Assembly: GCA_004298385.1 (NCBI GenBank)
Contig: SCTX01000050.1
Coordinates: 1 to 64,000, forward strand
Direction of reading: 5' to 3'
Length of the DNA stretch: 64,000 bases
DNA from: Betaproteobacteria bacterium
Lineage (GTDB): Bacteria; Pseudomonadota; Gammaproteobacteria; Burkholderiales; SG8-39
Within the stretch, counting starts at the first letter, position 1; the number at the start of each line of letters is the position of its first letter. The position numbers and the translations under genes were made by a program. The notes below the pieces were generated by a model. The model saw only the letters and a program-made list of their open reading frames with translations, was not told the origin of the DNA and did not search any database. Shown in pieces: positions 10,786-59,836 of the stretch.

Positions 10786-12111
10786 ATGAATTGTTTTTCC
10801 AGCTTTTTTAAGCAAGCTATTCTGTGGGTTATTACGGTGGGAACTCTGGGAGTAAGCGGAGCAGTTTATCCTCAGGCCAACGAGCAGCGCGTCGCCTTCA
10901 TGGCGTTTCGTAATAGTCCGGTGGGGGCGCTAAGCGCGGCAATCAATGGGGCGGCCTTCGATTACATGAATCTGATCAACGATCGGGACGGCGGCGTCAA
11001 TGGCGTGAAGCTGGTATGGGAGGAATGCGAGACTGAATACAAAACGGATCGGGGCATCGAGTGCTACGAAAGGCTCAAGAATCGGGCGACGATGTTTATC
11101 CCGGTAATGACCGGCACTATCTATGCGCTCATCGAACGCACCCTGGCCGACAAAATCCCCATCGTTTCCATCGGCACCGGTCGCACCGATTCCACCGACG
11201 GACGGGTGTTTCCCTATGTTTTCCCCCTAGCTGCCAATTACTTGATGGGAAATACCGCCAAGATCAACTTTATCGGGCAGCGGGAAGGGGGGATGGATAA
11301 ACTCAAAGGCAAGAAAATCGTTAACCTCCACCACGGCTCGCCCTTCGGCAAGGAGACCATGCAGGTTCTGGATGCTCAAGCCGCGAAATACGGCTTTAGT
11401 CTCGTTCACATCGAAGTTCCCGGGTCGGGTGCCGAGCAACAGGCCCAGTGGCTGCAAATCCGCCAGCTTAAGCCTGACTGGGTGATCCTGCGCAGCGTCG
11501 GGCTCATGACCTCTGCGGCCATCAAGACCGCCCAAAGAGTCGGTTATCCGGCAGATCGCATCGTCGGCCTCTGGTGGACATCCGAACTGGACTTAATTTC
11601 CGCCGGGAGTGCGGCCAAGGGGGTGATTGCCAATACCTTCAGTCCCAGCGGCCGGGATTTCCCGGTCGTCAAGGAGATCCTCACGCGCTATTACAGCGGT
11701 GGAAAGCGCGGCAATATGGAGGATTCCAAAGTGGTCGGCAGTACCACCTACAACAGCGGCTTGCTGCATGCGATACTTACCGTCGAAGCGGTGCGAACCG
11801 CTCAGGAAAAGTTCGGCAAGAAAGCCATGGATCGGGAGCAGATGCGATGGGGCTTCGGGCATCTCAACATCGACGCCAAGCGGATAAAGGAGCTGGGGAT
11901 TGCTGGGTTGGTGCAGCCCCTCAAAACCTCCTGTTCCGATCATACAGGAGGGGGAGCGGTGAAATTCCAGCAATGGGATGGTCAGAATTGGGTGGCGATC
12001 AGCGACTGGGTTTCCGGGGATCCGTCCCTTGTCGACCCCATGATACATGAATCCGCGGCCAAGTACGCCAAGGAAAAAGGAATTACCCGGCGGGACTGTT
12101 CCAAGGAATAG
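10786..12111 (+). CDS. ABC transporter periplasmic binding protein, paralog of the 2003 gene
   Basis: MNCFSSFFKQAILWVITVGTLG...ANEQRVAFMAFRNSP...; co-linear similarity with the 2003 product. Confidence 0.87.
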   Translation: MNCFSSFFKQAILWVITVGTLGVSGAVYPQANEQRVAFMAFRNSPVGALSAAINGAAFDYMNLINDRDGGVNGVKLVWEECETEYKTDRGIECYERLKNRATMFIPVMTGTIYALIERTLADKIPIVSIGTGRTDSTDGRVFPYVFPLAANYLMGNTAKINFIGQREGGMDKLKGKKIVNLHHGSPFGKETMQVLDAQAAKYGFSLVHIEVPGSGAEQQAQWLQIRQLKPDWVILRSVGLMTSAAIKTAQRVGYPADRIVGLWWTSELDLISAGSAAKGVIANTFSPSGRDFPVVKEILTRYYSGGKRGNMEDSKVVGSTTYNSGLLHAILTVEAVRTAQEKFGKKAMDREQMRWGFGHLNIDAKRIKELGIAGLVQPLKTSCSDHTGGGAVKFQQWDGQNWVAISDWVSGDPSLVDPMIHESAAKYAKEKGITRRDCSKE

Positions 12112-12203
12112 CAAGAGTTCCGGATAGTCTATAAGAACCGGCGTCACGGTGAGTCACCGGCGTGCGATTCACCTTAACCAACGTTAAAAGAGGAACAAAG
12201 AAC

Positions 12204-13097
12204 ATGGCTCTTGAGACACTCAAGAATAAAGTTGCTGTGGTCACGGGCAGCGCACGGGGGGCGGGATTGGCAATCGTCCAGGCCCTGGCCGCCGACGGGG
12301 TGAAAGTAGTGGTGGCCGACCGGACCGACAAGGCGCGGCCCGATCTGATGATGAAGAGCACGATTTACGACGTGGCCGAGGTGATCAACAAGCAAGGGGG
12401 GACGGCCATCGCGGTCAAAGTAGACTTGCGCCACGAAGATCAGATCATCGCGCTGCGGGACGAAACCTTGAAAGCATTCGGCACGGTAGACATCGTGGTG
12501 AACAACGCGGCCATCACCTTCGGCGCCAAGGTATGGGAGATCCCGACCGAGCGGTGGGACCAGGTCATGGCAGTCAACCCGCGGGCCAGCTTCCTGATGT
12601 GCAAGCACTTCCTGCCGACGATGATGCAGAAGAAGAGCGGATCCATCATCAACCTCTCCTCCCCGGCCGGTCGGGGACCGGCCCCCGGCATGGCGGCCTA
12701 CTCCGCCTCCAAGGCCGCCATCGATTACTTCACCTTGACCCTGGCCGAGGAGCTACGGGAGTCCAACATCGCCGTCAACTGCATCGCCCCCACCGGAGGC
12801 ATTTTCAGCGAGGGAAATCTCCAACTCTTCCAGGACCAGTCCTGGATCGACACCTGGGAGCCCAGGGAGCATTTTGCCCTGGCGGTGCTCTGGCTGGCCA
12901 AGCAGGACGCCCAAAGCTTCACCGGCAACCTGGTCTGGAGCCGGGAGCTCATCTCCCAGATGGGTCTGTGCAAGAAGTGGTGCTGCGCGGCCCTCGGGTC
13001 CGGGCCTTCGGTGGTCGGCCCGATGAAGGTGGACTGGGAGTCGAGCCTTCCCGCCAAGATCTGGGAGGCCATGTCCGCCACGGGAAGCCGGGTATAA
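12204..13097 (+). CDS. Short-chain dehydrogenase/reductase
   Basis: VAVVTGSARGAGLAIVQALAADG, VNNAA, YSASKAAIDYFTLTLAEEL. Confidence 0.9.
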   Translation: MALETLKNKVAVVTGSARGAGLAIVQALAADGVKVVVADRTDKARPDLMMKSTIYDVAEVINKQGGTAIAVKVDLRHEDQIIALRDETLKAFGTVDIVVNNAAITFGAKVWEIPTERWDQVMAVNPRASFLMCKHFLPTMMQKKSGSIINLSSPAGRGPAPGMAAYSASKAAIDYFTLTLAEELRESNIAVNCIAPTGGIFSEGNLQLFQDQSWIDTWEPREHFALAVLWLAKQDAQSFTGNLVWSRELISQMGLCKKWCCAALGSGPSVVGPMKVDWESSLPAKIWEAMSATGSRV

Positions 13098-13169
13098 GCG
13101 GCATTCATCGATGGATACCGTCCCGGAAATCTGCGTTCATCCGGGTCCAAACTTTAGGAAGGAAAAGCG

Positions 13170-14177
13170 ATGGCCCGCAAAAAGCACGAGTACCTGGAGG
13201 ACTATGAGATCGGTCAGCAGGGGGAAACCTTCACCCGGACTGTCTCGACGGCTGACATCACCTTCTTTGCCTGCATCACGGGCGACTATTCATCGGTCCA
13301 CCTGGACCGGCACCTGACGGCCGGCGGCCAGTATCAGGGCCGGATCGCCCACGGGCTGCTGGGCTCCAGCCTGGTGATGGGCATGGTCTCCATCGACGCA
13401 CCCCATATCGTCGGGCGGGATGTTCCCGAGAGCTGCCTCAGCGGTTTCGAGACGAACTACCGGGGGGCCATTTACCTGGACGACACGATCAAGATCCGCT
13501 GGCAGATCGCTGGGAAGGCCGATGACCCCACTCAACAGGGATTCGGCTTGGTGCGGACCGCCTTCCAGGTGCTCAACCAGGACGGCAACAACGTCTACGA
13601 AGGAACCCTCATCACCAAGGTCCGCAAACGATCGGCCGACAACGCCCGGCTCCAGTGGAAGACCGCCACGCCCTGGCGGATCAGGGAGTTCGTCCTGGAC
13701 CCGGAAAAGGTCTACTACCTGGAGGATTTCGTGCCGAATGAGGGAGGGCTGAGCACAGGCCGCACCTTCACCGAGGCCGACTCCGTCAACTTCTGCGGCC
13801 TGACCGGGGATTACAACCCTCTTTACGTCGATGCCGAATTCGCCAAAAGGACTGTTTTCGGGCAGCGCATCGTTCACCCCATGATGCCCTTCACCAGCGC
13901 CTTCGGCTGGTGGACCCGTGATGGGGGTCCGTTGCGGGTCAAGAGTCCCGGGGCCGCCACCGAGGCCGGCCACCTCAGCGACAGCGCGAACTTCCTCGGC
14001 CCGGTTTATATCGGCGACACCCTCCGCTGTTGCTTCAAGGTAGCCGAAACCCGTGTTTCCAAGAGCAAGCCCGACCGGGGGGTTCTAAGCTTCGGCTTCC
14101 AATTGATCAACCAGCGCGACGAGGTGGTCCAGGAGGGCAAGACCCTGCTGATGCGGGGCGCCCGCGGCGCGGCTTGA
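13170..14177 (+). CDS. MaoC-like dehydratase, two hot-dog domains
   Basis: ITGDYSSVHLDRHLT...GRIAHGLLGSSLVMGM and CGLTGDYNPLYVDAEFAKRTVFGQRIVHPMM. Confidence 0.85.
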   Translation: MARKKHEYLEDYEIGQQGETFTRTVSTADITFFACITGDYSSVHLDRHLTAGGQYQGRIAHGLLGSSLVMGMVSIDAPHIVGRDVPESCLSGFETNYRGAIYLDDTIKIRWQIAGKADDPTQQGFGLVRTAFQVLNQDGNNVYEGTLITKVRKRSADNARLQWKTATPWRIREFVLDPEKVYYLEDFVPNEGGLSTGRTFTEADSVNFCGLTGDYNPLYVDAEFAKRTVFGQRIVHPMMPFTSAFGWWTRDGGPLRVKSPGAATEAGHLSDSANFLGPVYIGDTLRCCFKVAETRVSKSKPDRGVLSFGFQLINQRDEVVQEGKTLLMRGARGAA

Positions 14178-14193
14178 GAAGGACCTGGAGAGC

Positions 14194-14790
14194 ATGATCG
14201 ACTTACGTCGCCACCATTACCGTCAACCACCCCAAGGCGCTCAACGCTTTCATTCTTATGCACGATCACGGACCCCAAGCAACAGTCTGAAACTGGCGAT
14301 CGCCAGAGTTAACCGCTATTGCATCGGCGACGGCCACCATATGCCGCCGACCACTCCATCTTCGGCCAAAACGTCCGCGGCTGGGTTCGCTGGCTGGCGG
14401 CTACATCGTCGCCCATGCCGCGAATCTGCTGGGCCGTAAGCGCGCGCCCGGGAGCTAGCGTATGTTATGCTGTCGCTACACGGCCCGGTCAAGTCCTGGA
14501 ATCGGGCCTGACCAACTCCGCTGTGCCCAAGGAGAATCTGGACGAGGAAGTGCGTAAATGGCGCAACAAGCTGTTGTCCCAGCCCCCGACCCACCTGAAG
14601 ATCCTCAAGCGCTCCTTCCTTCTACCACGTGGCTCCCATTCTGGATCACAATATGCAGGACATCATCAAGAAAGTGGCCCCCAACTACTTTAAGACAGGG
14701 GAACAGTTGGAGGAGGCCAATGCTTTTCTGGAAAAGCGCAAGCCCGATTTCAGCCTCTGGCGCCGAAGTCAGTCTAGCACTCCTGCAATG
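14194..14790 (+). pseudogene. Decayed crotonase of the BadI/MenB (2-ketocyclohexanecarboxyl-CoA hydrolase / DHNA-CoA synthase) type
   Basis: Frame-jumping match: YVATITVNHPKALNAF / LAIARVNRYCIGDGHHM / ADHSIFGQN / GSLAGGYIVAHAANLLGRKRA / ENLDEEVRKWRNKLLSQPPTHLKILKRSF / LEEANAFLEKRKPDFSLWRR. Confidence 0.78.
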
Positions 14791-15150
14791 GCCCTTTGCG
14801 AGCGCGGTCTCTGTTTGGTTTGGAACAATCGATGAGAATTGCCTTCTGTCGGTAATTTTTCGCAAGGAACGCAACCAGGCCGAGGGCACGATCGCGAAGC
14901 TGAAGGATGAATTTGGAGGCAAGCAAGTCTGGGTCTGAGTAGACCACAGAAATAGAGCTAATCGCAAAAAAATTGCTTGGAACGAAGCGCGCCAACACAC
15001 GCGGCCGCGCGCTCCGAGACTTTCGTAAGAAGCTCGGTAAATTTCAAATATCTTTGGTTAGAATTTCGCCGCGTTATGCGGTTCGATCTTCACCGATGCC
15101 GAACGGCAGGAGTGGGGAAATATTGGAACGAAGTCTCCGGAGGGGGATTC

Positions 15151-17121
15151 ATGGAAACGACTGGTGAGCGGAGTGTCGCGCTGTCGGACACTTTTCCCAA
15201 GCTATTGCTTGATCATCTGAAAAATCGGCCCGCTCGGCCGGCGATTCGGGAAAAAGATTTCGGAATCTGGCAATCCTGGACTTGGGGGGAATACGCCGCC
15301 GAAGCGCGGGCTCTTGCCTGCGGCTTGGCGGCCAAGGGTTTCAAGCGGGGCGACAAACTGGGCATTATCGGCGACAACAGGCCGCGCCTCTATTGGGCAG
15401 CCGCTGCCGCCCAGGCTTTGGGGGGCATCCCGGTTCCGCTGTATCAGGACGCAGTGGCCGAGGAAATGGTGTTCGTCATCGACAATGCGGAAATCCGCTT
15501 CGTGGTGGTGGAAGACCAAGAGCAGGTGGACAAGCTGTTGGAAATGAAGGAGCGTATTCCCCGCGTCGAATTGATCATCTACGACGAACCCCGGGGCCTG
15601 GGACACTACGACTTTCCGTTTCTCGACAGCTACGAAGAGATTCGGGGCCTGGGCAAAATCTTCGATCAAGAACACCCGGACTTTTTTCTTAAGGAAGTCA
15701 CCCAGGGGTCGGGGTCCGATATCGCGACGATCCTTTATACCTCGGGCACCACCGGCCAGCCCAAAGGGGTGGTGCTGACTTACGCTAACCTGATGACGAC
15801 CAGCCGGAACGCCATCGAAAGCGAGCGCATCCAGCCGGATGAGGAGGTATTGTCCTATTTGCCGATGGCATGGATCGGGGATCACATGTTCTCTTATTGC
15901 CACGCCCACATCGCCGGCTACTGCGTGAATTGTCCCGAGAGCGCCGAGACCATGCTGACCGATTTGCGCGAGATCGGGATCACTTATTTTCTGGCCCCCC
16001 CCAGGGTGTATGAAAACCTGCTGACGTCGGTGATGATCCGCATGGAGGACGCGACCTGGCTCAAGCGCAAGATGTTCCACTACTTTATGGGAGTGGCCCG
16101 CCAGGCCGGCGTTGCGATACTGGACCGCAAGCCGGTATCGGTGATGGATCGGCTGCTTTATGCCATCGGCGGTTTCTTGGTGTATGAGCCGCTCAAAAAT
16201 GTATTGGGATTCAGCCGCATGCGGCTGGCTATTACGGGCGGAGAGGCCATCGGTCCGGATCTTTTCGCCTTCTTTCGATCGCTGGGGATAAATATCAAGC
16301 AATTGTATGGCGCTACCGAAGCTTCGGCTTTCGTGACGGTGCAGCCCGACGGGGAGGTGAACGCTATTACCGTGGGCAAGCCGGTGCCCGGGGTCGAAAT
16401 CAAGATTACCGAGGCGGGGGAGGTCATCGTTCGCAGTCCCGGGGTGTTCCATTCCTACTATAAGAATCCCAAGGCCACCCAGGAAGCCAAGAATGACCAG
16501 GGCTGGCTGCTCACGGGGGATGCCGGTTTCTTCGACGATAACGGCCATCTGCGCATTATCGACCGGGCCAAGGATGTGGGGCGGCTCAACAACGGCTGCA
16601 TGTTCGCCCCCAAATTCCTTGAGAATAAGCTGAAGTTCTTCCCCTACATCAAGGAGGCCGTCACCTTCGGCAACGGGCGAGATGAGGTGGCCGCCTTCAT
16701 CAACATCGACATTACCGCGGTGGGTAATTGGGCGGAACGCCGCAACCTTCCCTATAGCGGCTATACCGACCTGGCCGGCAAGCCGGAGGTGTCTGCGCTG
16801 ATCAAGGAATGCGTGGAGCAGGTCAATCGGGACCTTGCCGCCGATTCCCATCTGTCCGGTTCCCAGATCAAACGTTTCCTCATCCTGCATAAGGAGTTGG
16901 ATGCCGATGACGGCGAGTTGACCCGGACCCGTAAGGTGCGGCGCAGAAGCATCGTGGAAAAATATGAGGTATTGATCGAGGCCCTGTACAGCGGGAAAGA
17001 TCACTGCCCGATCGAAAGCCAGGTGAAGTTCGAGGACGGACGGGTCGGAATGCTGAAAGCCGATCTCAAGATCGTGGACGTTCGGACCTTCACTCCAGAA
17101 GAACTCAAAAAGGCAAGTTAG
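15151..17121 (+). CDS. Long-chain-type acyl-CoA synthetase (AMP-forming)
   Basis: ATILYTSGTTGQPKGVVLTYANL, YGATEASAFV, GWLLTGDAGFFDDNGHLRIIDRAKD; RBS before ATG 15151. Confidence 0.9.
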   Translation: METTGERSVALSDTFPKLLLDHLKNRPARPAIREKDFGIWQSWTWGEYAAEARALACGLAAKGFKRGDKLGIIGDNRPRLYWAAAAAQALGGIPVPLYQDAVAEEMVFVIDNAEIRFVVVEDQEQVDKLLEMKERIPRVELIIYDEPRGLGHYDFPFLDSYEEIRGLGKIFDQEHPDFFLKEVTQGSGSDIATILYTSGTTGQPKGVVLTYANLMTTSRNAIESERIQPDEEVLSYLPMAWIGDHMFSYCHAHIAGYCVNCPESAETMLTDLREIGITYFLAPPRVYENLLTSVMIRMEDATWLKRKMFHYFMGVARQAGVAILDRKPVSVMDRLLYAIGGFLVYEPLKNVLGFSRMRLAITGGEAIGPDLFAFFRSLGINIKQLYGATEASAFVTVQPDGEVNAITVGKPVPGVEIKITEAGEVIVRSPGVFHSYYKNPKATQEAKNDQGWLLTGDAGFFDDNGHLRIIDRAKDVGRLNNGCMFAPKFLENKLKFFPYIKEAVTFGNGRDEVAAFINIDITAVGNWAERRNLPYSGYTDLAGKPEVSALIKECVEQVNRDLAADSHLSGSQIKRFLILHKELDADDGELTRTRKVRRRSIVEKYEVLIEALYSGKDHCPIESQVKFEDGRVGMLKADLKIVDVRTFTPEELKKAS

Positions 17122-17131
17122 GAGCGATCTC

Positions 17132-17920
17132 ATGGCGGAATCCAGACATCTGGGCGACATCATTTTGAAGATAGACCACATTTCCCTCTCTTTCGGCGGG
17201 ATCAAGGCACTGGTCGATATCAGCTTCCAGGTCCGCAGGGGGGAATTTCTGGCCATCATCGGCCCCAACGGCGCGGGCAAGAGCTCCATGCTTAACGTCA
17301 TCAATGGTGTCTATCACCCCCAAACGGGAACCGTGACCTACAAAGGAGAGACTCGCCACCATATGCCGCCCCATCGGGCCGCCGAATTGGGGATCGGCCG
17401 CACTTTCCAAAACATTGCCTTGTTCAAGGGCATGACGGTGCTCGACAACATCAAGACCGGCCGCAGCCTGAAGATCAAACCCAATTTCTTGATGAACGCC
17501 ATATGGTTCGGCCCGGCCCGGCGCGAGGAGTTGGAGCATCGCCGAAAAGTCGAGGAAATCATCGATTTTCTGCGCCTGGAAGATATCCGGCGCACCCCCG
17601 TGGGCATGTTGCCCTACGGCTTGCAAAAGCGGGTGGAGCTGGGACGAGCGCTGGCCGCCGAGCCTGATCTGTTGCTGTTGGACGAGCCCATGGCCGGCAT
17701 GAATATCGAGGAAAAGCAGGCCATGTGCCGGTTCGCATTGGATGTAAATGATGAATTCGGGACCACGGTAGTGCTCATCGAGCATGACATGGGAGTGGTG
17801 ATGGATATTTCCGACCGCGTGGTGGTATTGGATTACGGCAGAAAAATCGCCGACGGCACCCCGGACGAGGTGCGACAAAACCCCGAGGTGATCAAGGCCT
17901 ATCTCGGAGTCGGTCATTAG
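17132..17920 (+). CDS. livG: LivG-type ABC transporter ATPase
   Basis: GPNGAGKSSMLNVINGVYHP, GLQKRVELGRALAAEPDLLLLDEPMAGM. Confidence 0.92.
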   Translation: MAESRHLGDIILKIDHISLSFGGIKALVDISFQVRRGEFLAIIGPNGAGKSSMLNVINGVYHPQTGTVTYKGETRHHMPPHRAAELGIGRTFQNIALFKGMTVLDNIKTGRSLKIKPNFLMNAIWFGPARREELEHRRKVEEIIDFLRLEDIRRTPVGMLPYGLQKRVELGRALAAEPDLLLLDEPMAGMNIEEKQAMCRFALDVNDEFGTTVVLIEHDMGVVMDISDRVVVLDYGRKIADGTPDEVRQNPEVIKAYLGVGH

Positions 17921-42341: not shown

Positions 42342-43127
42342 TCAGAACTTGGGCGCGCGCTTGTCCTTGAATGCGCTCATTCCTTCGCGCCAGTCGTTAC
42401 TGTCGACCAGCGCCGCCAGCGCCTCGATGCCGAAGCGCATCGCGCTGCGCTGGTCGACGTCACCGGCCAGGTGGATCGAGGCCTTGCACTGCGCCAGGGC
42501 GCGCGGGCTGTAGCGGCACAACTCCTCGGCCAGATCGAGCGCGCGCGCCATCAGCGCATCGGGCTCGGTGGCGTCGCAGAGCAGCCCCGCCCTCTCGGCT
42601 TGCTGCCAGTCGATCTGGCGCGCCAGCAGAATCCACTCGAACGCCTTGCCGCGGCCGCAGAACTTGTGCAGCTTCTGCACGCCGCCGGCGCCCGGCGTGG
42701 CGCCGAGCTTCACTTCCGGCAGGCCGATGCGGGCGGTCTTCGACATGACGCGCAAGTCGCAGGCCAGTGCCAGCTCGAAGCCGCCGCCGAGCGCATAACC
42801 GTTGATCGCCGCGATCACCGGCAGCGGCAGCGACTCGATGCGATCGAACAGCGCCGCGATCTTGGCCAGGTAGCCGTCGCGCACGTCGAAGCGATGGTCC
42901 GGCCCATGCCCCGAACCGTCGAAGTACTTCAGGTGCGCGCCGCAGCAAAAGGCGCGACCTCTGCCGGTGATGATGAGCGCCCGGGCACCGTCGACCGCAG
43001 CCCGCGCCAAGGCCGCATCGAGTTCGTCCAAGAGTTCGTGCGACAAGGTGTTCATCTCGGCGGCGCGTGTCATCGTCACGCGCGCGATGCGCGCCGCAGC
43101 CCAGTCGAATTCGGTCGCGTGTCCCAT
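42342..43127 (-). CDS. Enoyl-CoA hydratase/isomerase
   Basis: GRGRAFCCGAHLKYF, INGYALGGGFELALACDLRV, MSAFKDKRAPKF. Confidence 0.88.
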   Translation of the reverse strand: MGHATEFDWAAARIARVTMTRAAEMNTLSHELLDELDAALARAAVDGARALIITGRGRAFCCGAHLKYFDGSGHGPDHRFDVRDGYLAKIAALFDRIESLPLPVIAAINGYALGGGFELALACDLRVMSKTARIGLPEVKLGATPGAGGVQKLHKFCGRGKAFEWILLARQIDWQQAERAGLLCDATEPDALMARALDLAEELCRYSPRALAQCKASIHLAGDVDQRSAMRFGIEALAALVDSNDWREGMSAFKDKRAPKF

Positions 43128-43139
43128 GGCCGGCGCCGA

Positions 43140-44294
43140 TCAGAAGCGCACGTCGAGCCCGAGCTCGCGCGCGATGACGAGCTTCTGGATCTCGCTGGCG
43201 CCGTCGCCGATGGTGCAGACGCGGTTGTCGCGGTAGTAGCGCGACACCGCGCAGTCGTCCATGAAACCCCAGCCGCCGTGGATCTGCAGCGCCATGTCGG
43301 CGCAACGCGAACCGACGTCGGTGGCCCAGTACTTCGCCATGCCCAGTTCCTTCAGATCGGCTCGCCCGGCGTCGGCGTGCACCGCCGCCCGGTAGGTCAG
43401 CAGGCGTGCGCTATCGACCAGCACAGCCATCTCGGCGATTTTTTCCTGGATCATCTGCAACGAGCCCAGCGTGCCGCCGAAAGCCTTGCGATCCTTGGCG
43501 TATTGCAACGCGCGCTCCAGGCTTGCCTGGGCCAGGCCCAGCGAACACGCGGACAGAAACAGCCGCGCCTGCTGGTAGCCCTTATGCAGCAGATGGCGGC
43601 CGCGATGCGCCTCGCCGATGATCATGTCGGCGCCGACACGGCAGTCATCGAAGTAAAGCGGCCGCGTGTCCGAAGACTTCCAGCCCATTTTCTTGTAGCG
43701 CTCCCCCGGCGTGAAACCCGCGCTTCCGGCGGGCACCAGAAACAGCGTGAACGAGCGATGCTCGTTCTCCACGCGCGTGCTGGCCAACACCATCACGTAC
43801 GAGGTAATCACCGTGCCGGCGTTGGTGATGTAGGCCTTCTCGCCGGTGATCGCCCAGCCGCCATCAACCGCGACCGCGCGAGTGCGAAAAGCGGAAGTGT
43901 CGGAACCGGCCTGGGGTTCGGTGCCGGCGATGGCGCCGAGACATTTGCCGGTCATTATGTCCGGCAGAAAACGCTCGATCTGCGCCTCGGTGCCGAAACG
44001 CATCAGGATCAGCCCGGTCGCCATGCTGACCATCGCGGTGACGGCGAGCGACTGGTCGGCTTGCGCGAGCTGCTCGAGCGCCAGCACGGCCTCGAAGGTG
44101 CCAAGGCCCATGCCGCCGAGTTTTTCCGGAAACGGTATCGACATCACCCCGGCCTGGCCGACCTTGTGTACCAGCTCCACCGGGAACCGGCCCTCGGCGT
44201 CGAGTTGCTGCGCGACCGGCTCCACTTCGTAGCGGGCGAACTCGCGCACGGCCTCCTGGATGCGTCGCTGGTCGTCGTTAAGATCGAAGTCCAT
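43140..44294 (-). CDS. Acyl-CoA dehydrogenase
   Basis: MDFDLNDDQRRIQEAVREFARYEVEPVAQQLD, IAGTEPQAGSDTSAFRTRAV, QIHGGWGFMDDCAVSRYYRD. Confidence 0.92.
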   Translation of the reverse strand: MDFDLNDDQRRIQEAVREFARYEVEPVAQQLDAEGRFPVELVHKVGQAGVMSIPFPEKLGGMGLGTFEAVLALEQLAQADQSLAVTAMVSMATGLILMRFGTEAQIERFLPDIMTGKCLGAIAGTEPQAGSDTSAFRTRAVAVDGGWAITGEKAYITNAGTVITSYVMVLASTRVENEHRSFTLFLVPAGSAGFTPGERYKKMGWKSSDTRPLYFDDCRVGADMIIGEAHRGRHLLHKGYQQARLFLSACSLGLAQASLERALQYAKDRKAFGGTLGSLQMIQEKIAEMAVLVDSARLLTYRAAVHADAGRADLKELGMAKYWATDVGSRCADMALQIHGGWGFMDDCAVSRYYRDNRVCTIGDGASEIQKLVIARELGLDVRF

Positions 44295-44341
44295 GTTGCC
44301 CTCTTTCAGTCGCTGCGCCGCGGCCGCCAACGTACCTTGGG

Positions 44342-45022
44342 TCAGTCCGCAAACTCGGTCGATAACATCTTCGGGTCGCGCGTCAGGGCCGGCACCGGCA
44401 CGGTGGAAAGAGCGCGCTCGAGGATTTCGGTGATCGCCACCGCGATCTGGGCGCCGCTCCATTCCTCGGACGGGTCGAACCACTTTTGCACCCAGTTCAC
44501 CATCCCCATCGCGGCAAAAATCACCAGCCGCGGAGAGCACGGCACGATGCTCCCGTCGGCGATGCCGGCTTCCACCAGAGCGCGCAGCCGGCGCTCGAAC
44601 TTGTCGCGCAGGGCCACGATTCTCGTCCTTTCGGCCGGGCGCATCGCGTTCTCCTCGAGGAGCACGACCGCCGATCCATGGTTGCCGATCAGCCACACCA
44701 GGTAGTGGCGCAGCGCGAGCACCACCTTCTCGCGGCCGTTTCGGCCCTGCTGCGCGCCGCGCTCCAGCCCTTCGAGCGCCGCCTTCATCGCCAGTTCGTG
44801 GCAACGGTACAGCAGTTCCCGCTTGTTCTTCACGTAGTAGTACAACGCGGCCTTGGTGAGACCCAGGTTGCGGGCAATCTCGTCGAGCGAGGTGCCGTGG
44901 AAACCGTCCTTGCTGAAGCTGTGCGCGGCCTCGCGGTAGAGCACGTCAAGCTTGATCTGGCGGCGTTCAACGGTGCTCGGCAGAGCCGCCTTCCACACCT
45001 CGCGTTCGCGCAGCTTCATCAC
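44342..45022 (-). CDS. TetR-family transcriptional regulator
   Basis: REAAHSFSKDGFHGTSLDEIARNLGLTKAALYYYVKNKRELLYRCHELAM. Confidence 0.92.
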   Translation of the reverse strand: MMKLREREVWKAALPSTVERRQIKLDVLYREAAHSFSKDGFHGTSLDEIARNLGLTKAALYYYVKNKRELLYRCHELAMKAALEGLERGAQQGRNGREKVVLALRHYLVWLIGNHGSAVVLLEENAMRPAERTRIVALRDKFERRLRALVEAGIADGSIVPCSPRLVIFAAMGMVNWVQKWFDPSEEWSGAQIAVAITEILERALSTVPVPALTRDPKMLSTEFAD

Positions 45023-45180
45023 ATCAGACCCTGGTTGCAGGCGTAGCGGTCATCTTCATTCCATGGCTTGAGTCCACCACCGGTTACCGGGCGCGGGTTG
45101 CTTGCTTTCCGCGCAGCGCTCTCCGCGCACGGAACCGGCAGGCAATAATATTTTACCCTCGGTTTAATTGCTTGTCCATA

Positions 45181-45209
45181 TTGACAGTTATTAGACTTGC
45201 AAGTAAATT
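45181..45209 (+). promoter_or_regulatory. Sigma70-like promoter with embedded palindrome ACTTGCAAGT (45195-45204)
   Basis: TTGACA-17 bp-TAAATT in the divergent TetR/thiolase gap. Confidence 0.6.
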
Positions 45210-45266
45210 CCGGCTTTCCTCTATGCGCGGCACAGGGCAAGGCGGCGTCAAGGCCCAGGAGCGGAC

Positions 45267-46364
45267 GTGACTATCGGTATGTATGTGATTGGCGTGGCGA
45301 TGCACCCGGCGCAGGTCAAAGTGGCCGACAAGCGCCTGGAGGAAATGGTGTACGACACCGCCCGCGCCTGCCTCGACGGCGCCGGCATCGAGCGCAGGCA
45401 GCTCGATCACGTGACCATCGCCGGCTGCGACGAACTCGACGGGCGCAGCATTTCGAGCATGCTGCTCGCCGCCCCCTCGGGCGCCTATCTGAAGGACGAA
45501 CTCAAGGCGACCGACTCGGGCATGCACGGTCTCTGTCTGGAGGCCACGCGGCTCGGATCGGGCCGCTTCGATCTCGGACTGGTGGTAAGCTGGTGCAAGA
45601 CCTCGACCGCGCCGCTCGAAGACGTGATGCGGATGCGCTGCGATCCGTTCTTCACCCGGCCCATCGGGCTCAACATGAGCATCGCCGACGGCTTGCTGGC
45701 GCGGGCCAGCGCCGAGTCCATCGGCTGTACCGAGGCGCAGGCGGCCGCCGCCGCGGCGGCCTACCTGCGGCAGGCGGCACGCAACCCGCGCGGCACCCGG
45801 CCGCCGCCGGTTTCGCCCGAGCAGTTGCTCGCCTCCGCCTACGTCGCCGCACCCCTGCGCGCCGGCCACCAGGCGCCACCGACCGACGGTGCGGTGGCGC
45901 TGTTGATGGCGTCAGAGCGCTGGGTTGAGGCGAACTCGAATGTCCGCCCGCTGGCACGCATGAGCGGCATCGCCTGGCGCGTCGACAGCTACCAGCTCGG
46001 CGCCCGGCGGCTGTCGTCGCTTGACGCGGTGCGCGGCGCGTTCGCCGCCGCTGCCCGCCAGGCCGGCATCGACGACGCGGCGCCGCTCGACGTGATCGAA
46101 CTCGAGGCGCAAACCGGCTATCACGATCTGGCGCTGCGCCACGCCTTGGCCATTGCGGATTCGGTGGCCGTGTCGCCCTCCGGCGGCCCATTCGCGCAGA
46201 ATCCGTACTTCTGTACCGGCCTGGTCGGCGCGGCCGAAGCCGTGATGCAGGTGGCGAACCGCGCCGGCCCGGTGCAGGTGCCGGGCGCCAGGCGGGCCGC
46301 TGCCGTGGGGCTATGCGGATTCGCTGCGCAGAGCGCCGCGGTGGCCATTTTCGAAGGAGCATGA
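45267..46364 (+). CDS. Thiolase-fold protein without recognisable catalytic Cys/His
   Basis: ATDSGMHGLCLEATRLGSGRFD where NNCSTGS is expected; SPSGGPFAQNPYFCTG where GHPxGATG is expected. Confidence 0.82.
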   Translation: MTIGMYVIGVAMHPAQVKVADKRLEEMVYDTARACLDGAGIERRQLDHVTIAGCDELDGRSISSMLLAAPSGAYLKDELKATDSGMHGLCLEATRLGSGRFDLGLVVSWCKTSTAPLEDVMRMRCDPFFTRPIGLNMSIADGLLARASAESIGCTEAQAAAAAAAYLRQAARNPRGTRPPPVSPEQLLASAYVAAPLRAGHQAPPTDGAVALLMASERWVEANSNVRPLARMSGIAWRVDSYQLGARRLSSLDAVRGAFAAAARQAGIDDAAPLDVIELEAQTGYHDLALRHALAIADSVAVSPSGGPFAQNPYFCTGLVGAAEAVMQVANRAGPVQVPGARRAAAVGLCGFAAQSAAVAIFEGA

Positions 46365-47557
46365 TGGTGCAGCCCCAGCGTGTCGCGGTCATCGGCGTCG
46401 GCCAGACCCCATTTCGCAGCCAGCGACCGGACAAGACCTATGTCGAGCTGGCGCAGGACGCCGCCAAGGCCGCGCTCGACGATGCCGGCATGACACCCGA
46501 CGAAATCGACGCCGTGGTCTTCTCGATGGCGCCGACCCAGTTCATGGGCGTCAATGATTGCGAAAAGTGGGCCGTCGATTCGATCTGGGCCGCGGGCAAG
46601 CCTTTGCTGCGCGTGCATACCGGCGGCGCCACCGGCGGCTCGGCGCTCCAGGCCGGCTACACGCACGTTGCGAGCGGCTTGTTTCGCACCGTTCTGGTCA
46701 TCGGCGCCGACCGCGTATCGGAAACGCCGGACGCGCAGCATGTGCTGAACCTCATCTGGGACCGGTTCTACGAGCATGATTTCGCGCTCAACACGGTGAC
46801 GATGACGGCCCTGGCATCGCAGCGCCAGATGCACATGTATGGCACCACCGAGGAGCAGTTCGCGCGCGTGGTCGTGCGCGCGCGCCGCAACGCCATGCTC
46901 AACGACAATGCCCACTTGAAGGGCCACATCAGCGTTGAGGACGTGCTGAACTCGCCGCGCGTGGCCTACCCCTACCACCTGTTCGACATCTGCCCGCGCT
47001 CGGCCGGCGCGGCGGCCATGATCCTCGCCGACGGCGAGGTGACCGCGGCCCGATGCACGCGACCGGCGTTCGTCAACGGCATCGGCGCAGTCACGCAGAC
47101 CGTCTTCATGGGCGACAAGGTCGGTCCGAAGGCGGACACCGAGTACGCCGATCTCGGGGAACTGGAAATCGCGGCGCGCGATTGTTACGCCCACGCCGGC
47201 ATAACCGATCCGCGCAAGCAGATCCAGGTGGTCGAACTGTACGACCCGTTCAGTTCGATGCAGTTTCCGCAACTGGAGAGCTTGGGCTTCTGCGCGCGCG
47301 GCGAGGCCGCCCGACTCAGCGACGAAGGCGCCTTCGACATCGGCGGATCTTGGGCCGTCAGTCCTTCGGGCGGCACGCTGTGCGCCAACCCGATCGGCGT
47401 CAGCGGTCTGGTGCGCGGCATCGAAGCGGCGCTGCAAGTGATGGGCCGCGCCGGCGCCTACCAGGCCAAGGGCGTTCACATGGCCTTGGCGACGGCCATC
47501 GGCGGCTCGGCGCAGTTCTTCACCTGCACTGCCTTCGGCGACGACTACACGCGATAG
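46361..47557 (+). CDS. Thiolase-fold/SCP2-type protein without catalytic Cys/His
   Basis: VHTGGATGGSALQAG (Cys to Gly); SPSGGTLCANPIGVSG (His to Asn); ATGA overlap with the upstream gene. Confidence 0.85.
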   Translation: MMVQPQRVAVIGVGQTPFRSQRPDKTYVELAQDAAKAALDDAGMTPDEIDAVVFSMAPTQFMGVNDCEKWAVDSIWAAGKPLLRVHTGGATGGSALQAGYTHVASGLFRTVLVIGADRVSETPDAQHVLNLIWDRFYEHDFALNTVTMTALASQRQMHMYGTTEEQFARVVVRARRNAMLNDNAHLKGHISVEDVLNSPRVAYPYHLFDICPRSAGAAAMILADGEVTAARCTRPAFVNGIGAVTQTVFMGDKVGPKADTEYADLGELEIAARDCYAHAGITDPRKQIQVVELYDPFSSMQFPQLESLGFCARGEAARLSDEGAFDIGGSWAVSPSGGTLCANPIGVSGLVRGIEAALQVMGRAGAYQAKGVHMALATAIGGSAQFFTCTAFGDDYTR

Positions 47558-47565
47558 GGACCCCA

Positions 47566-48039
47566 ATGAACGACAAACGCAGAATCGAGCCGACGGACGT
47601 GATCCACGGCGAATGGCACGTCCGCTACAACTATTCGGTCGGCAAGGTCGCCGGCTTGTTCTTCGAAGGACTCAAGCGCAAGCAGATCCTGGCCACCCGC
47701 TGCCGCAAATCAGGCATCGCCTACCTGCCGCCGCGCGCCTACTGCGAGCGCTCGTTCGAGGTCTGCGACGAGTGGGTCGAGGCCGGCCTGCAGGGCGTGA
47801 TCGAAGCGGCGACCATCGTCAGCGCGCAGTTCGAGAACCTGCCGGCGCCGCCCTACGCGATCGCCTACGTGCGGCTGGACGGCGTCGACACCGCGATGAT
47901 CAACTTCGTTCGCGGCCTCGATTTGTCGGACGTGCCGCGCGCAATGGCCGCGCTGAAACCCGGCACGCGCGTGCAGGTTCGCTTCAAAGACCAGCCCGAA
48001 GGGCGCATCACGGATTTCCACTACGAGGCGCTGGCTTGA
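47566..48039 (+). CDS. DUF35 / OB-fold acyl-CoA-associated protein with degenerate Zn ribbon
   Basis: RCRKSGIAYLPPRAYCERSFE; adjacent to the thiolase-fold genes. Confidence 0.8.
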   Translation: MNDKRRIEPTDVIHGEWHVRYNYSVGKVAGLFFEGLKRKQILATRCRKSGIAYLPPRAYCERSFEVCDEWVEAGLQGVIEAATIVSAQFENLPAPPYAIAYVRLDGVDTAMINFVRGLDLSDVPRAMAALKPGTRVQVRFKDQPEGRITDFHYEALA

Positions 48040-48058
48040 CGACGGCCAACCGGGCACC

Positions 48059-49213
<1,155 letters not shown>

Positions 49214-49254
49214 GCGCAACGCGGCGGCGCCGAGGAACAACAAGGAGACGGAGG

Positions 49255-50400
49255 ATGGCTGCGATGAGATTCCGCACCTCGCTGTGCGACCTGCTCGGCA
49301 TCGACTACCCGGTCATGCTTGCCGCGATGGCGCCCGACGTCTCCGACCCGCAGCTTGTGGCCGCGGTGTCCGAAGCCGGCGGCATCGGCGTGTTGGCCTG
49401 CGGCGACAAGGACCCCGACGAGATCGTGGCGCTGGCGGCCGAGACGCGCAAGCTGACCGGCAAGCCGTTCGGCATGGACATCGCGCTGCCTGCTCGCGTC
49501 GAGACCTACGGCTTCGATTTTCGCGAGGCCGCGGCGAAGGCCAAGATACCGCCGCAGCACCTCGCGTTCCGCGAACGCTTTCTGCGCGAACGCGGCATCC
49601 CCTTCGACGATGACACCAGCCGGGCCACGCCCGGCATGAGCTCGGTCGCCGCGTACAAACTGGGCGAGACCTTCAGCCGCCAGCAGGTCAAGGCCATCCT
49701 GCAGGAGCGACCCGCGCTGTTCGTCTCGGCCCTCGGCGACCCGTCGTTCATGGTGGCCGAAGCGCGTGCGCGCGGCATCAAGGTGATGAGCGTGGTCGGC
49801 AAAGCCAAGGACGCGGTCAATGTCGCGCGCGGTGGCATCGACGCGGTCATCTGCACCGGCACCGCGGCAGGCGGGCACAGCGGCGAGGTCGACGGCATGG
49901 TGCTGGTGCCGCACGTGGTGGAGCGCATCGCCCCGGTGCCGGTGGTGGCCGGCGGCGGCATAGTCGACGGCCGCGGCCTGGCGGCGGCGCTGGCACTGGG
50001 CGCGATCGGCGTCTGGGTCGGCTCGCGTTTCATCGCCAGCGAAGAGTGTAAGGCGCCGGCATGGTACAAGGCGCGCCTGGTCGAAGCGGGCGATGGCGCC
50101 ACCGTGCGCAGCAAGTGGTACACGGGAAAGACCTGCCGTCATCTGCGCAGCGAGTGGGACACCGCCTGGGACGCTTCGGGCCTGCCCGCGCTGCCGATGC
50201 CCGAGCAGGCCTTGCTCAGCACGCCGATGGCGCTCGGCGCGGCGCAAGTCGGCCGCCACCTGGAGTCGGGCGTCTTCTGCGGGCAGGGCGTGGCCCGCAT
50301 CGACGGCCTGCTGCCGGTGCGCGAGATCGTCGATCGCATGATCGCCGACGCGCGCGAGATCCTGCTGCGCGAGCTGCCCGCCCGCGTCAGTTGCGCCTGA
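49255..50400 (+). CDS. Nitronate monooxygenase-like flavoprotein (IpdC-like by context)
   Basis: DYPVMLAAMAPDVSDPQLVAAVSEAGGIGVLACG, GTAAGGHSGEVDGMVLVPHVVE, VVAGGGIVDGRGLAAALALGAIGVWVGSRFIAS. Confidence 0.85.
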   Translation: MAAMRFRTSLCDLLGIDYPVMLAAMAPDVSDPQLVAAVSEAGGIGVLACGDKDPDEIVALAAETRKLTGKPFGMDIALPARVETYGFDFREAAAKAKIPPQHLAFRERFLRERGIPFDDDTSRATPGMSSVAAYKLGETFSRQQVKAILQERPALFVSALGDPSFMVAEARARGIKVMSVVGKAKDAVNVARGGIDAVICTGTAAGGHSGEVDGMVLVPHVVERIAPVPVVAGGGIVDGRGLAAALALGAIGVWVGSRFIASEECKAPAWYKARLVEAGDGATVRSKWYTGKTCRHLRSEWDTAWDASGLPALPMPEQALLSTPMALGAAQVGRHLESGVFCGQGVARIDGLLPVREIVDRMIADAREILLRELPARVSCA

Positions 50401-50419: not shown

Positions 50420-51307
50420 ATGGAAGTGATCGACACGCCCAAGCGCGTCAGCAAGGTCGGCACCCTGGCGCAGGCCGCCGCGCTGATCGCCGACGGCAGC
50501 ACGCTTGCCTTCGGCGGCATTCATTCGCACAACGGGCCGATGGCGCTGATCCGCGAGATCGTCCGCCGCGGCGCCAAGGGACTCAAGCTCATTGCCAACG
50601 TCAGCGCCGGCATGCCGGCCGATCTGCTGGTCGGCGCCGGCTGCGTCGACACGCTTACCGTATGCTACGTCGGCCTCGAGCACCTGGGCATGGCGCCGCG
50701 TTACCGCAAGGCGGCCGAAGAAAAACGCATCAAGGTCATCGACGGCGACGAGATCTACTACGTGCTGGGGTTGAAGGCCGGCGCGCTGGGCCTGCCCTTC
50801 GTGCCCTACCCGCCCGGCCACGAGGCGCGCGACAACCCCAAGTACGAGCCCACCTACAAGCGCACCACCGACCCATATACCGGGCGCGAGATCATCGTCT
50901 CGCCCGCGATCGCGCCCGACGTCGGAATCATTCACGCGGCCAAGTGCGATCCCTACGGCAATGTTGTGCACCTCGGCTCGGTGGTGGCCGACGACCTGAT
51001 CGCCAAGGCCTCGCGCCGCACTATCGTGACCACCGAGGAGATCGTGACGCTGGAGAGCATTCAGGCCGACCCGAAGCGCACCAGCATTCCCGGCCACTAC
51101 ATCGACATGGTGGTCAAGGTGCCCTATGGCGCGCATCCGCTGTCGTGTCACGGCGTCTACAACCACGACGAGCCGGCGCTGATCGACTACCGCGATGCCG
51201 ACATCGACACGTACCTGCGCGACTTCGTGTTCGGGCCCGGGGATCACTTCGCCTACCTGGAGAAGTTCGGCATCGAACGCCTCCTGCACCTGCGCGAATC
51301 GATTTGA
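50420..51307 (+). CDS. CoA-transferase family alpha subunit (glutaconate CoA-transferase/IpdA-like)
   Basis: AQAAALIADGSTLAFGGIHSHNGPMALIREIVRRGAKGLKLIANVSAGMPADLLVGAG; paired with the next gene. Confidence 0.85.
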   Translation: MEVIDTPKRVSKVGTLAQAAALIADGSTLAFGGIHSHNGPMALIREIVRRGAKGLKLIANVSAGMPADLLVGAGCVDTLTVCYVGLEHLGMAPRYRKAAEEKRIKVIDGDEIYYVLGLKAGALGLPFVPYPPGHEARDNPKYEPTYKRTTDPYTGREIIVSPAIAPDVGIIHAAKCDPYGNVVHLGSVVADDLIAKASRRTIVTTEEIVTLESIQADPKRTSIPGHYIDMVVKVPYGAHPLSCHGVYNHDEPALIDYRDADIDTYLRDFVFGPGDHFAYLEKFGIERLLHLRESI

Positions 51308-51317
51308 GGAGCCCGGC

Positions 51318-52133
51318 ATGCCGACCACGACGACAGCGCAAGAGTATTCGATCGGTGAGATCATGGCCGTCGCGATCGCGCGCCAGATGAAGGAGCACGA
51401 CGGCGACTGGGCCGCGGTGGGCGCCTATTCGCAGTTGCCCGCGGCCGCACTGAAGCTGGCGCGCATCCTGTATGCGCCCAATCTGTGGTGGCTGGCCGGC
51501 GGGGGCGGCGCGATCAATTCGAGTTCCAGGCTGCAGACCTCGACCTCGGACCACCGTGTCCTGCGCGGCGCCGAGTACGTGATGAACATGGAGGACATCG
51601 TCGACATCGAGATGTGGCGCCACAACCGCGACAACGAGAAGATCGTGGCCGTGATCGGCGGCATCCAGATCGACAAATACGGCAGCAGCAACATGGTCTG
51701 CGTCGGCGATTACGCTTCGCCCAAGGTGCGCGGCGTGGGCACGGTCGGGCTGTGTTTCGGCGTGTCCTTCGGCATCCTCTACTTCTTTACCATGCACCAC
51801 AACCCGAAGATCTTCGTCGAGCAGGTGGATTTCATCAGTTCGCCCGGTCATACCGCCGAGCGCAAGAAGCACGTGCAATCGCTATGCGTCGGACCACGGC
51901 TCGTGTACTCGCCGCTGGGCGTGTTCGACTTCGCGCCCGAGACCGGAACCATGCGCATCCGCTCGCTGCATCCCGGCGTCAGCGTCGACGAGGTGCAGGC
52001 CAAGACCGGCTTCGAGCTCATCGTCCCCGCACGGATCGCGCTGACCGAGGCGCCCACGGCACGGGAACTCGCGCTGCTGCGCACCCAGGTCGATCCGGAC
52101 GGGCTACTAGGGAAGCTGCGCATCACGCGCTGA
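51318..52133 (+). CDS. CoA-transferase family beta subunit (IpdB-like)
   Basis: VIGGIQIDKYGSSNMVCVGDYASPKVRGVGTVG, FVEQVDFISSPGH, SPLGVFDFAPETGTMRIRSLHPGVSVDEVQAKTGFE. Confidence 0.85.
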   Translation: MPTTTTAQEYSIGEIMAVAIARQMKEHDGDWAAVGAYSQLPAAALKLARILYAPNLWWLAGGGGAINSSSRLQTSTSDHRVLRGAEYVMNMEDIVDIEMWRHNRDNEKIVAVIGGIQIDKYGSSNMVCVGDYASPKVRGVGTVGLCFGVSFGILYFFTMHHNPKIFVEQVDFISSPGHTAERKKHVQSLCVGPRLVYSPLGVFDFAPETGTMRIRSLHPGVSVDEVQAKTGFELIVPARIALTEAPTARELALLRTQVDPDGLLGKLRITR

Positions 52134-57760: not shown

Positions 57761-58549
57761 TCAAGACTTGAACACCGGCGCGCGGCGCGCTTCGAACGCG
57801 GCCAGGCCTTCGCTGACATCGTCGCTGAGCAGGGCTGCACTCACCAAGTCTTCCTCCAGCTTCAAACCCGCCTGCAGCGTGCCCTCGAGTCCCTGGCGCG
57901 CGAGCCGCTTCATCGCCGCGATGCCGACGCGGCTGCGCGTGGCGAGCTTGGTGCAGTACTCGAGCGCCGCATCGCCGAGCTGGCCGGGTTCGACCACGTA
58001 GTTCACCAGCCCCCATTGCAGCGCCGTATCGGCGTCGATCCAGCGCGCGCTGAAGAACAGGTCCAGACCTCGCCGCAGGCCGACGATGCGCGGGAAGCGC
58101 TGACTGCCGCCCCATCCCGGAATCAATCCGAATTGGGCATGCTGGTCGCCGATGCGTGCGTCACGGGCGGCAAAGATCACGTCGCAGGCGAGCATCAGTT
58201 CGCTGCCGCCGGCTAGGGCAAGGCCTTGGCATGCCGCGACGACCGGAAGATCGCTCGCCTCCAGGCGCTTGAGCACGCTGTGGCCATAACCGATAAAATG
58301 CTTCAGCTTGCCGGCATCGCCGCGCAGCGACATCACCTCGTCAAGATCGGCGCCGGTGCAGAAATGCTTGCCCTGCGCCCTGATCAGGATGACGCGCACG
58401 CCGGAGCCCGGCTGTTCGAACCCGTCGACGGCGGCCTCGATGGCCGCATGACACGCCAGCGACAGGCAATTGAATTTCTCGGGGCGCGCCAGTTCGATGA
58501 TGCCGACGGCCCCCAACCGGCTGAGGACTACGGGGGACGCCTGACTCAT
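57761..58549 (-). CDS. Enoyl-CoA hydratase/isomerase
   Basis: IRAQGKHFCTGADLDEV, CQGLALAGGSELMLACDVIFAA, FEARRAPVFKS. Confidence 0.9.
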   Translation of the reverse strand: MSQASPVVLSRLGAVGIIELARPEKFNCLSLACHAAIEAAVDGFEQPGSGVRVILIRAQGKHFCTGADLDEVMSLRGDAGKLKHFIGYGHSVLKRLEASDLPVVAACQGLALAGGSELMLACDVIFAARDARIGDQHAQFGLIPGWGGSQRFPRIVGLRRGLDLFFSARWIDADTALQWGLVNYVVEPGQLGDAALEYCTKLATRSRVGIAAMKRLARQGLEGTLQAGLKLEEDLVSAALLSDDVSEGLAAFEARRAPVFKS

Positions 58550-59712
58550 TTTTTGCTCTCCGTGGCGTATTGCACGGCCACGCGACCGATTTTCTCGCGG
58601 GCGATGATCAGCTTCATGATCTGCGCCGTGCCATCGCCGATTTCCAGGCCCATCACGTCACGCAGGCGCTGCTGGTGCGCGAGGTCCATCGACCAGCCGT
58701 AGTGGCCGAAGCTCAGGATGCATTGGTGGATCGCGTCGAAGGCGGTTTTCGGCCCCATCCACTTGACCATGGCCGCTTCCGCGGTGTGCGGCAGGCCCGC
58801 GTCGCGCAACGCCAAGCCGTGATAGCAGAGCTGGCGGCAGGCGGCGATCTGGGTCTCGAACTCGACCACGGGGAAGGTCACGCCCTGGTACTGCGCCAGC
58901 GGTACGCCGAAAGCCTGGCGCTCCTTCACGTATTCCCAGGTCTCGTCGATCGACGCCTGCGCCGCGCCAATACACTGCAGCGCGATCAGGATGCGGCTGA
59001 AGTCGAAGCCCTGCATCACCTGGGTGAAGCCCTTGCCTTCATCGCCGAACCGGTTCTCGACCGGCACCCGAGCATCGTCGAAGAACACCGAGCCGCGGCC
59101 GATGATCTTGCTGCCGACGTCGTTGAAGCGGGTGCGCTGCACGCCCTTCTGATCCAGCGGCACCAGGAACGCGCTGACGCCGCGCGCGCCTTCATCGGGC
59201 CGGCCGGTGCGCGCGAACAAAATCATGGCATCCGCCTGATCGGCGAAGGTGATCGATGTCTTCTCCCCGGAGAGCACGTACTCGTCGCCGACGCGCCGCG
59301 CCTTGACCTGCAGGTTGGCGGCATCCGAGCCGCCGCGCGGCTCGGTCAAGCCCAGACCGATGATGGCCTCGCCCGCCAGCAACCGGCCGATCCACGAGCG
59401 CGCCAGTTCGGGCCGCGCGTGGCGATGCATGATGGCCCCCATCAACGAGCCGAGCAACTGCATGTAGCTGACATTGAAGTCGCCATAGGCGATCTCCTCA
59501 GTGATGAGGCCGGCGGTCACGCCGCTCGCGCCCAGGCCGCCATATTCCTCCGGCAGATCGACGCCGATCAGGCCGAGCGAACCCATTTCCTTGAACAGCG
59601 AGCGGTCGATTCCCGGCTGCGACTCGCGCTTCTGGTAGTCGGGTCTGAGCTTGTCTCGCGCAAAGCGGCGCGCCACGTCGCGCAGCGCAATCTGATCCTG
59701 GTCGAATATCAT
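58546..59712 (-). CDS. Acyl-CoA dehydrogenase (paralog of 7049 gene)
   Basis: MIFDQDQIALRDVARRFARDKLRPDYQKRESQPGIDRSLFKEMGSLGLIGVDLPEEYGG. Confidence 0.92.
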   Translation of the reverse strand: MIFDQDQIALRDVARRFARDKLRPDYQKRESQPGIDRSLFKEMGSLGLIGVDLPEEYGGLGASGVTAGLITEEIAYGDFNVSYMQLLGSLMGAIMHRHARPELARSWIGRLLAGEAIIGLGLTEPRGGSDAANLQVKARRVGDEYVLSGEKTSITFADQADAMILFARTGRPDEGARGVSAFLVPLDQKGVQRTRFNDVGSKIIGRGSVFFDDARVPVENRFGDEGKGFTQVMQGFDFSRILIALQCIGAAQASIDETWEYVKERQAFGVPLAQYQGVTFPVVEFETQIAACRQLCYHGLALRDAGLPHTAEAAMVKWMGPKTAFDAIHQCILSFGHYGWSMDLAHQQRLRDVMGLEIGDGTAQIMKLIIAREKIGRVAVQYATESKK

Positions 59713-59836
59713 TGGTGGTGCCTCCTGGTTGTCGGTTGCCTCGGATAAATGCCCACGATGCCGCTTGCTTGCCACCGGCAGGTCCATCATCGAGATGACC
59801 GCGGTGAACGCGAATTGCAAGGCTGGGCGGCTGCAA

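Follow-up and report, generated by a model that had tools for sequence, protein, structure and literature searches.

The stretch of DNA analysed here (64,000 nucleotides, hereafter the window) carries three genes arranged head to tail on the + strand in a tight operon. The first (45267–46364) starts with a GTG codon with AGGAG before it and encodes P1, a 365-residue Ltp4-type thiolase-fold subunit; the second (46361–47557) encodes P2, a 398-residue Ltp3-type thiolase-fold subunit that we propose to be catalytic; and the third (47566–48039) encodes a 157-residue DUF35 protein in which the OB fold is intact and the rubredoxin-like zinc ribbon is altered. Starts of P2 at 46313 and of the DUF35 gene at 47053 were both corrected to the coordinates given here, the most likely start of P2 being the ATG at 46361, which is preceded by GGAG and overlaps the P1 stop codon (ATGA).

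Orthologs were found at nine genome loci (L024–L032) and on a plasmid of Simplicispira (L033), giving about ten orthologous triads with identities of 48–63% for P1 and 55–74% for P2; in L029 P2 runs off the contig, and in L026 it is interrupted. At all loci examined, the gene directly preceding P2 was of the P1 type. Surveys of 60 relatives, 399 genomes from the phylum and 369 from the class (overlapping sets) showed P1 in no other genome, and the rarity and patchiness of the clade suggest horizontal spread. On the Simplicispira suum plasmid (NZ_CP027671.1; L033 9140–10770), a second set lies right behind the triad, comprising its own OB-fold protein and a protein resembling Ltp2 that has the motifs YDHF and AYIHG and scored 401 bits against NF005892 (cut-off 469), so that two aldolase systems may share one operon.

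The genes around the triad, assigned by Pfam, belong largely to acyl-CoA metabolism. The next operon gene after DUF35 encodes an acyl-CoA dehydrogenase (48059–49213, + strand), an ortholog of which, 75–77% identical, belongs to the triad operon in two Rhodobacteraceae (L024 and L025). On the − strand, divergent from P1, are genes for a TetR regulator (44342–45022), with orthologs close to the triad in L024, L025, L027, L028, L030 and L033; a second acyl-CoA dehydrogenase (43140–44312), proposed to carry out a desaturation step, whose ortholog is the first gene after the triad in L027 and L028; and a crotonase (42342–43127), assigned by synteny as well and proposed to carry out a hydration step, in which both catalytic Glu motifs are readable (GGGFE and LPE). 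Acyl-CoA dehydrogenases usually have their catalytic Glu in a C-terminal motif; this motif is GDGASE in the 43140–44312 enzyme and GGGADE in the 48059–49213 enzyme, and the base of both may be displaced, as it is in enzymes acting on branched substrates. Between the TetR gene and P1 is a divergent promoter region (45150–45209, both strands) with sigma-70-like sites at 45181–45209 (+) and 45178–45150 (−), which are consensus matches only and not evidence of function; they were the only promoter-like sites in 44200–49400, where 0.5 were expected by shuffling. A perfect palindrome, ACTTGCAAGT, at 45195–45204 occurs once in the window (0.01 expected) and is a possible TetR operator.

Further downstream, an IpdC-like nitronate monooxygenase-family protein is encoded at 49255 beside a CoA-transferase pair (50420–52133). 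Assignment of this pair to IpdAB and the HIP pathway was rejected: its alpha subunit scored 142 bits for glutaconate CoA-transferase and 71 bits for IpdA, and so is nearer to the former. Another dehydrogenase (58546–59820) falls short of the cut-off of the cyclohexanecarboxyl-CoA dehydrogenase model (545 bits, cut-off 575) and adjoins a BaiCD/OYE-like reductase at 59749, so that alicyclic ring degradation is possible.

Compared to SCP2-type thiolases, both P1 and P2 are missing the nucleophilic Cys, the His of the HDCF motif and the His of the GHP motif, all of which are intact (CSTGS, HDCF and GHP) in an SCP2-thiolase paralog encoded at 31180 of the same window. The nucleophile stretch of P2 reads VHTGGATGGSA, cf. 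VNNNCSTGS in the paralog, which bears out the replacement of CSTGS by GATGG reported previously and leaves Gly89 (TGGATGG) in the nucleophile place; its HDCF motif is YDPF, and Asn343 takes the place of the GHP His (GGTLCANP, cf. GGLLSKGHP in the paralog). P1 has Ser84 rather than Cys in the nucleophile place, EAQT in the HDCF region and Asn312 for the GHP His (GGPFAQNP). Relatives show the same replacements, with Gly at the nucleophile position in 17/17 P2-type proteins (and also in TcLtp2) and, where the GHP His would be, Asn in each of the 16 P2-type proteins long enough to reach that point and in 14 of the 15 P1-type proteins. The loss of Cys and the Asn substitution had been noted for both proteins in the sequence-only reading, and we agree with it that probably neither is a Cys/His thiolase. 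It had also raised the possibility of catalytic Cys and His at shifted positions; these were not found in P2, and P1 has conserved Cys90, His286 and Cys316 located off the catalytic motifs, which we weighed as possible shifted catalytic residues.

In the DUF35 protein, for which 3irb is the closest solved structure, the OB-fold domain (PF01796) scored 38.1 bits, above the cut-off of 27.1, and the zinc ribbon (PF12172) scored 19.3 bits, below the cut-off of 23.2. The ribbon reads C46-R-K-S49 ... C60-E-R-S63, matching the original description (CRKSG...CERS) in having Ser for two of the four zinc-ligand Cys; with 2/4 Cys, it is not a four-Cys zinc ribbon. Across the ten DUF35 proteins of the clade (the window's included), the fourth zinc Cys is replaced by Ser, Ala or Thr in all ten and the second by Ser in nine. 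The window protein probably no longer binds zinc in a normal Cys4 site. The loss of zinc ligands is not peculiar to the source genome: it is clade-wide and also occurs in Nocardia farcinica (L038 6747–7856), where the DUF35 protein adjoining an Ltp4–Ltp3 pair has an aligned ribbon with 0/4 zinc Cys, apparently through an independent event. On a Rhodococcus qingshengii plasmid (L040 5120–6031), the protein in the P1 position is cut to 304 residues with a weak N-terminal thiolase match, and P2 and a four-Cys DUF35 are retained.

All three triad genes are under purifying selection, with dN/dS values in two ortholog pairs of 0.11 and 0.13 for P1, 0.06 and 0.08 for P2, and 0.07 and 0.12 for DUF35; the neighbouring dehydrogenases (0.07) are near these values. 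Since the same residue losses recur across orthologs and dN/dS lies between 0.06 and 0.13, the losses are neither chance nor sequencing error nor decay. The DUF35 lineage was apparently maintained by selection after its zinc ligands were lost.

The sequence-only reading had named the Ltp2 aldolase as a chemical precedent and suggested looking for its active-site tyrosines. The precedent proved relevant, and P2 has the base tyrosine: Tyr294 in LYDPF (codon 47240–47242) aligned pairwise with the catalytic Tyr294 of TcLtp2 (6ok1), and the P2 segment LYDPFSSMQFPQLESLGFCARGEA aligned with LYDHFTPLVLPQLEELGFCARGEA of TcLtp2 without gaps. The second aldolase residue is missing from P2, which has Asn343/Pro344 in place of Tyr344 of TcLtp2 and YDP in place of Cys304 of CtSal, and P1 has neither of the catalytic tyrosines of Ltp2. 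The aldolase Tyr is present in 16/17 P2-type proteins, the haloarchaeal one having Phe, and the same position holds Glu or Asp in P1 (Glu280 in the window protein) and His in actinobacterial Ltp4s; for this reason, P2 is proposed as the catalytic subunit. In P2, His185 and Asn343 are conserved across bacteria and in an archaeon, and Cys341 is conserved within the clade.

These residues bear on two other readings of the triad. A complex of decayed thiolases that carries acyl-CoA or transfers lipids without catalysis would accommodate the loss of both thiolase motifs and the missing aldolase Tyr of P1, and the description of NF005924 is that of a lipid-transfer protein. However, Tyr294, His185 and Asn343 of P2 are kept across bacteria (the archaeon keeps all but the Tyr), purifying selection is strong, the triad is recurrently paired with dehydrogenase and hydratase genes, and an aldol-lyase role is reported for Ltp3–Ltp4 (PMC6678751, PMC7807495), so that we regard this reading as unlikely. 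The other, an acyltransferase or condensing enzyme in which DUF35 accompanies two thiolase-fold subunits, only one of them active, draws on PhlABC, whose three-part architecture is the same (SSO2064 paper, PMC2954200) and whose PhlC structures were among the PDB matches of P2. PhlABC has one active subunit, whereas neither P1 nor P2 has a nucleophilic Cys; P2 scored 113 bits against TcLtp2 but 54–58 bits against PhlC in the PDB sequence matches; and the neighbouring genes are catabolic acyl-CoA genes, all of which makes an acyltransferase very improbable.

Family models and phylogeny pointed to a closer known relative. The best NCBIfam family was NF005924 for P1 (134 bits, cut-off 419) and NF006180 for P2 (300 bits, cut-off 514), cut-offs that are passed by actinobacterial pairs (550–596 and 713–747 bits, respectively). 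In Tsukamurella, Streptomyces and Nocardia, above-cut-off members of the two families are adjacent behind a DUF35 gene; near the Tsukamurella pair stand genes matching EchA19 (428 bits, cut-off 400) and F420_Rv3520c (423 bits, cut-off 335). We take the presence of EchA19 and an Rv3520c-type gene near the pair to be the arrangement of the known sterol side-chain region; in M. tuberculosis, Rv3520c is followed by Rv3521 (DUF35), Rv3522 (Ltp4) and Rv3523 (Ltp3), with matching sizes. Our Ltp3 and Ltp4 anchors are accordingly actinobacterial proteins defined by family and gene neighbourhood, and not the Rhodococcus rhodochrous or M. tuberculosis sequences.

In a tree of 48 proteins, Sal not among them, P1 and the actinobacterial Ltp4s formed one clade (support 98/95) and P2 grouped with Ltp3 (80/77 to 91/58), on a branch separate from Ltp2 and from thiolases; the P2/Ltp3 group also took in, with moderate support, one protein each from Rhodococcus, Cupriavidus and a haloarchaeon. 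Family scores and phylogeny place P1 and P2 as divergent members of the Ltp4 and Ltp3 lineages, respectively, with weaker support for P2. Because P2/Ltp3 and Ltp2 are on separate branches, the Tyr that they share may be convergent. Five paralogs on other contigs of the source genome (L002, L003, L004, L005 and L007) branched with TcLtp2, two of which (L002 and L005) have the Tyr of the YDxF motif (LYDAF and IYDSF), which would give this 3.5 Mb genome a large set of candidate aldolases.

It is also conceivable that P2 is a stand-alone aldolase of the Ltp2 type with P1 outside the enzyme. P2 has the Ltp2 base Tyr, and CtSal functions as a homodimer with a DUF35 domain on either side (PMC12329534). 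Against this, a P1-type gene precedes P2 in all loci examined, P2 branches with Ltp3 and away from Ltp2, and Ltp3–Ltp4 is described as heteromeric (PMC6678751); we consider a P2 enzyme lacking P1 quite improbable.

We propose instead that P1, P2 and DUF35 probably form a heteromeric, CoA-thioester-specific retro-aldolase of the Ltp3–Ltp4 kind, in which P2 would be catalytic and P1 and DUF35 supporting. An adjacent acyl-CoA dehydrogenase would desaturate the acyl-CoA, the crotonase would hydrate the product to a beta-hydroxyacyl-CoA, and the complex would split the alpha–beta bond to give a short acyl-CoA and a ketone or aldehyde, a route that would dispense with a beta-keto intermediate and with the nucleophilic Cys and GHP His. 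Tyr294 of P2 would take the proton of the beta-hydroxyl, like Tyr294 of TcLtp2, and His185, Asn343 and Cys341 of P2 are candidates for reprotonating the enolate. P1 would be a non-catalytic or substrate-shaping partner, and DUF35 may clamp the subunits via its OB fold. L027 and L028 share the gene run P1–P2–DUF35–acyl-CoA dehydrogenase–crotonase–TetR, inside which no thiolase or hydroxyacyl-CoA dehydrogenase gene was recognised, and which suggests a desaturate–hydrate–cleave module.

We searched the source genome and eight other hosts for KshA (PF19298), which was absent from the source genome and from 5/8 other hosts (Roseovarius and four more); only two Rhodospirillales MAGs gave strong matches, and those in the L032 genome were marginal. 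As KshA is absent from most hosts, the triad is unlikely to depend on the aerobic breakdown of sterol rings, the clade probably has no tie to 9,10-seco steroid degradation, and a sterol substrate is not supported. A search for a BphD/HsaD-type hydrolase returned nothing near the cut-off, a result that says little either way. In L024 and L025 (Rhodobacteraceae), the triad operon also encodes a biotin-dependent acyl-CoA carboxylase with its beta and alpha subunits (at 11908–17215 and 11750–17444, respectively), which fits a carboxylation-dependent branched substrate and matches the order of carboxylation, hydration and aldol cleavage proposed for Ltp3–Ltp4 (PMC6678751). A bolder form of the proposal, in which a zinc-free obligate heterodimeric aldolase, with P1 supplying part of the active site, stands in for the usual HMG-CoA-lyase-type enzymes where branched or terpenoid acyl-CoAs are degraded via carboxylation outside sterol degradation, we put forward tentatively, as doubtful.

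The AlphaFold2 model of P1 (pLDDT 77, pTM 0.86) has a complete thiolase domain with some poorly modelled loops, and its best PDB match was the SCP2-thiolase 6hsp (TM 0.83). That of P2 (pLDDT 58) was too poor for side-chain placement and was therefore not used for reading residues; plasmid-derived rows were left out of the model alignments. No structure named Ltp3–Ltp4 appeared in PDB sequence and fold searches, and no in vitro assay of Ltp3–Ltp4 was found in the literature searched. The compact proteobacterial triad, which has just one DUF35 protein and adjoins its dehydrogenase and hydratase genes, is a tractable system for the catalytic split between the two Cys-less subunits of Ltp3–Ltp4, and it suggests that thiolase-fold aldolases extend beyond steroids.

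The sequence-only reading regarded the pair and its degenerate DUF35 partner as a possibly distinct system. A Cys-less pair beside DUF35 is already known in Ltp3–Ltp4 (PMC6678751), and the triad does not represent a system of a new kind: it appears to be a distant proteobacterial relative of the known Ltp3–Ltp4 aldolase. New here are the rare proteobacterial clade, the zinc-ligand-depleted DUF35, the compact operon and a probable non-sterol context. Ltp3–Ltp4 is reported to be a heteromeric aldol-lyase that acts on sterol side chains branched at C24 (Wilbrink 2012, as cited in PMC6678751 and PMC7807495), and removal of the C24 branch of sitosterol and campesterol side chains is reported in a review to proceed by desaturation, carboxylation, hydration and Ltp3–Ltp4 cleavage (PMC6678751; also PMC7807495). 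Like the window triad, it combines a DUF35 gene with adjoining genes for two thiolase-fold subunits that lack the Cys; the catalytic subunit bears Tyr-x-Pro-Phe, and Asn stands in the GHP place. It differs in that identity is only 26–30% for P1 and 37–38% for P2, whose scores are below the NCBIfam cut-offs; in that its DUF35 protein is about 300 residues long and encoded upstream, whereas that of the window has 157 residues, a depleted zinc ribbon and a downstream gene; and in that the source genome and several other hosts are without KshA.

Among the other known systems, Ltp2–ChsH2(DUF35) (6ok1) resembles the P2 system in its Cys-less thiolase fold, Tyr294 in YDxF and DUF35 partner; TcLtp2, with its DUF35 domain bound, uses Tyr294 as base and Tyr344 as acid (PMC12329534). 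It has no P1-like subunit, carries its own Tyr344 in place of Asn343/Pro344, has a Cys4 zinc ribbon and belongs to another branch of the tree. The Sal–Shy(DUF35) bile acid aldolase (9myr) is likewise a proteobacterial thiolase-fold retro-aldolase with a Tyr base and an altered DUF35 zinc site; in CtSal, also with a DUF35 domain bound, Tyr302 and Cys304 are catalytic, and Comamonas Shy has a Cys3His1 zinc site (PMC12329534). In contrast to the window triad, Sal has the Cys304 acid in YDC where P2 has YDP, and Shy keeps zinc and has its DUF35 fused to a MaoC hydratase. PhlABC shares a thiolase-fold pair and DUF35 in one operon, but has one active thiolase-fold subunit and is biosynthetic (PMC2954200). 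The 31180 paralog shares fold and superfamily with P1 and P2 and, with its intact motifs, scored 687 bits against NF006102 (cut-off 436). A partner subunit without catalysis, as proposed for P1, is found in ChsH1–ChsH2, where it serves substrate binding (PMC11321319), and, in the thiolase fold, in PhlA–PhlC (PMC2954200).
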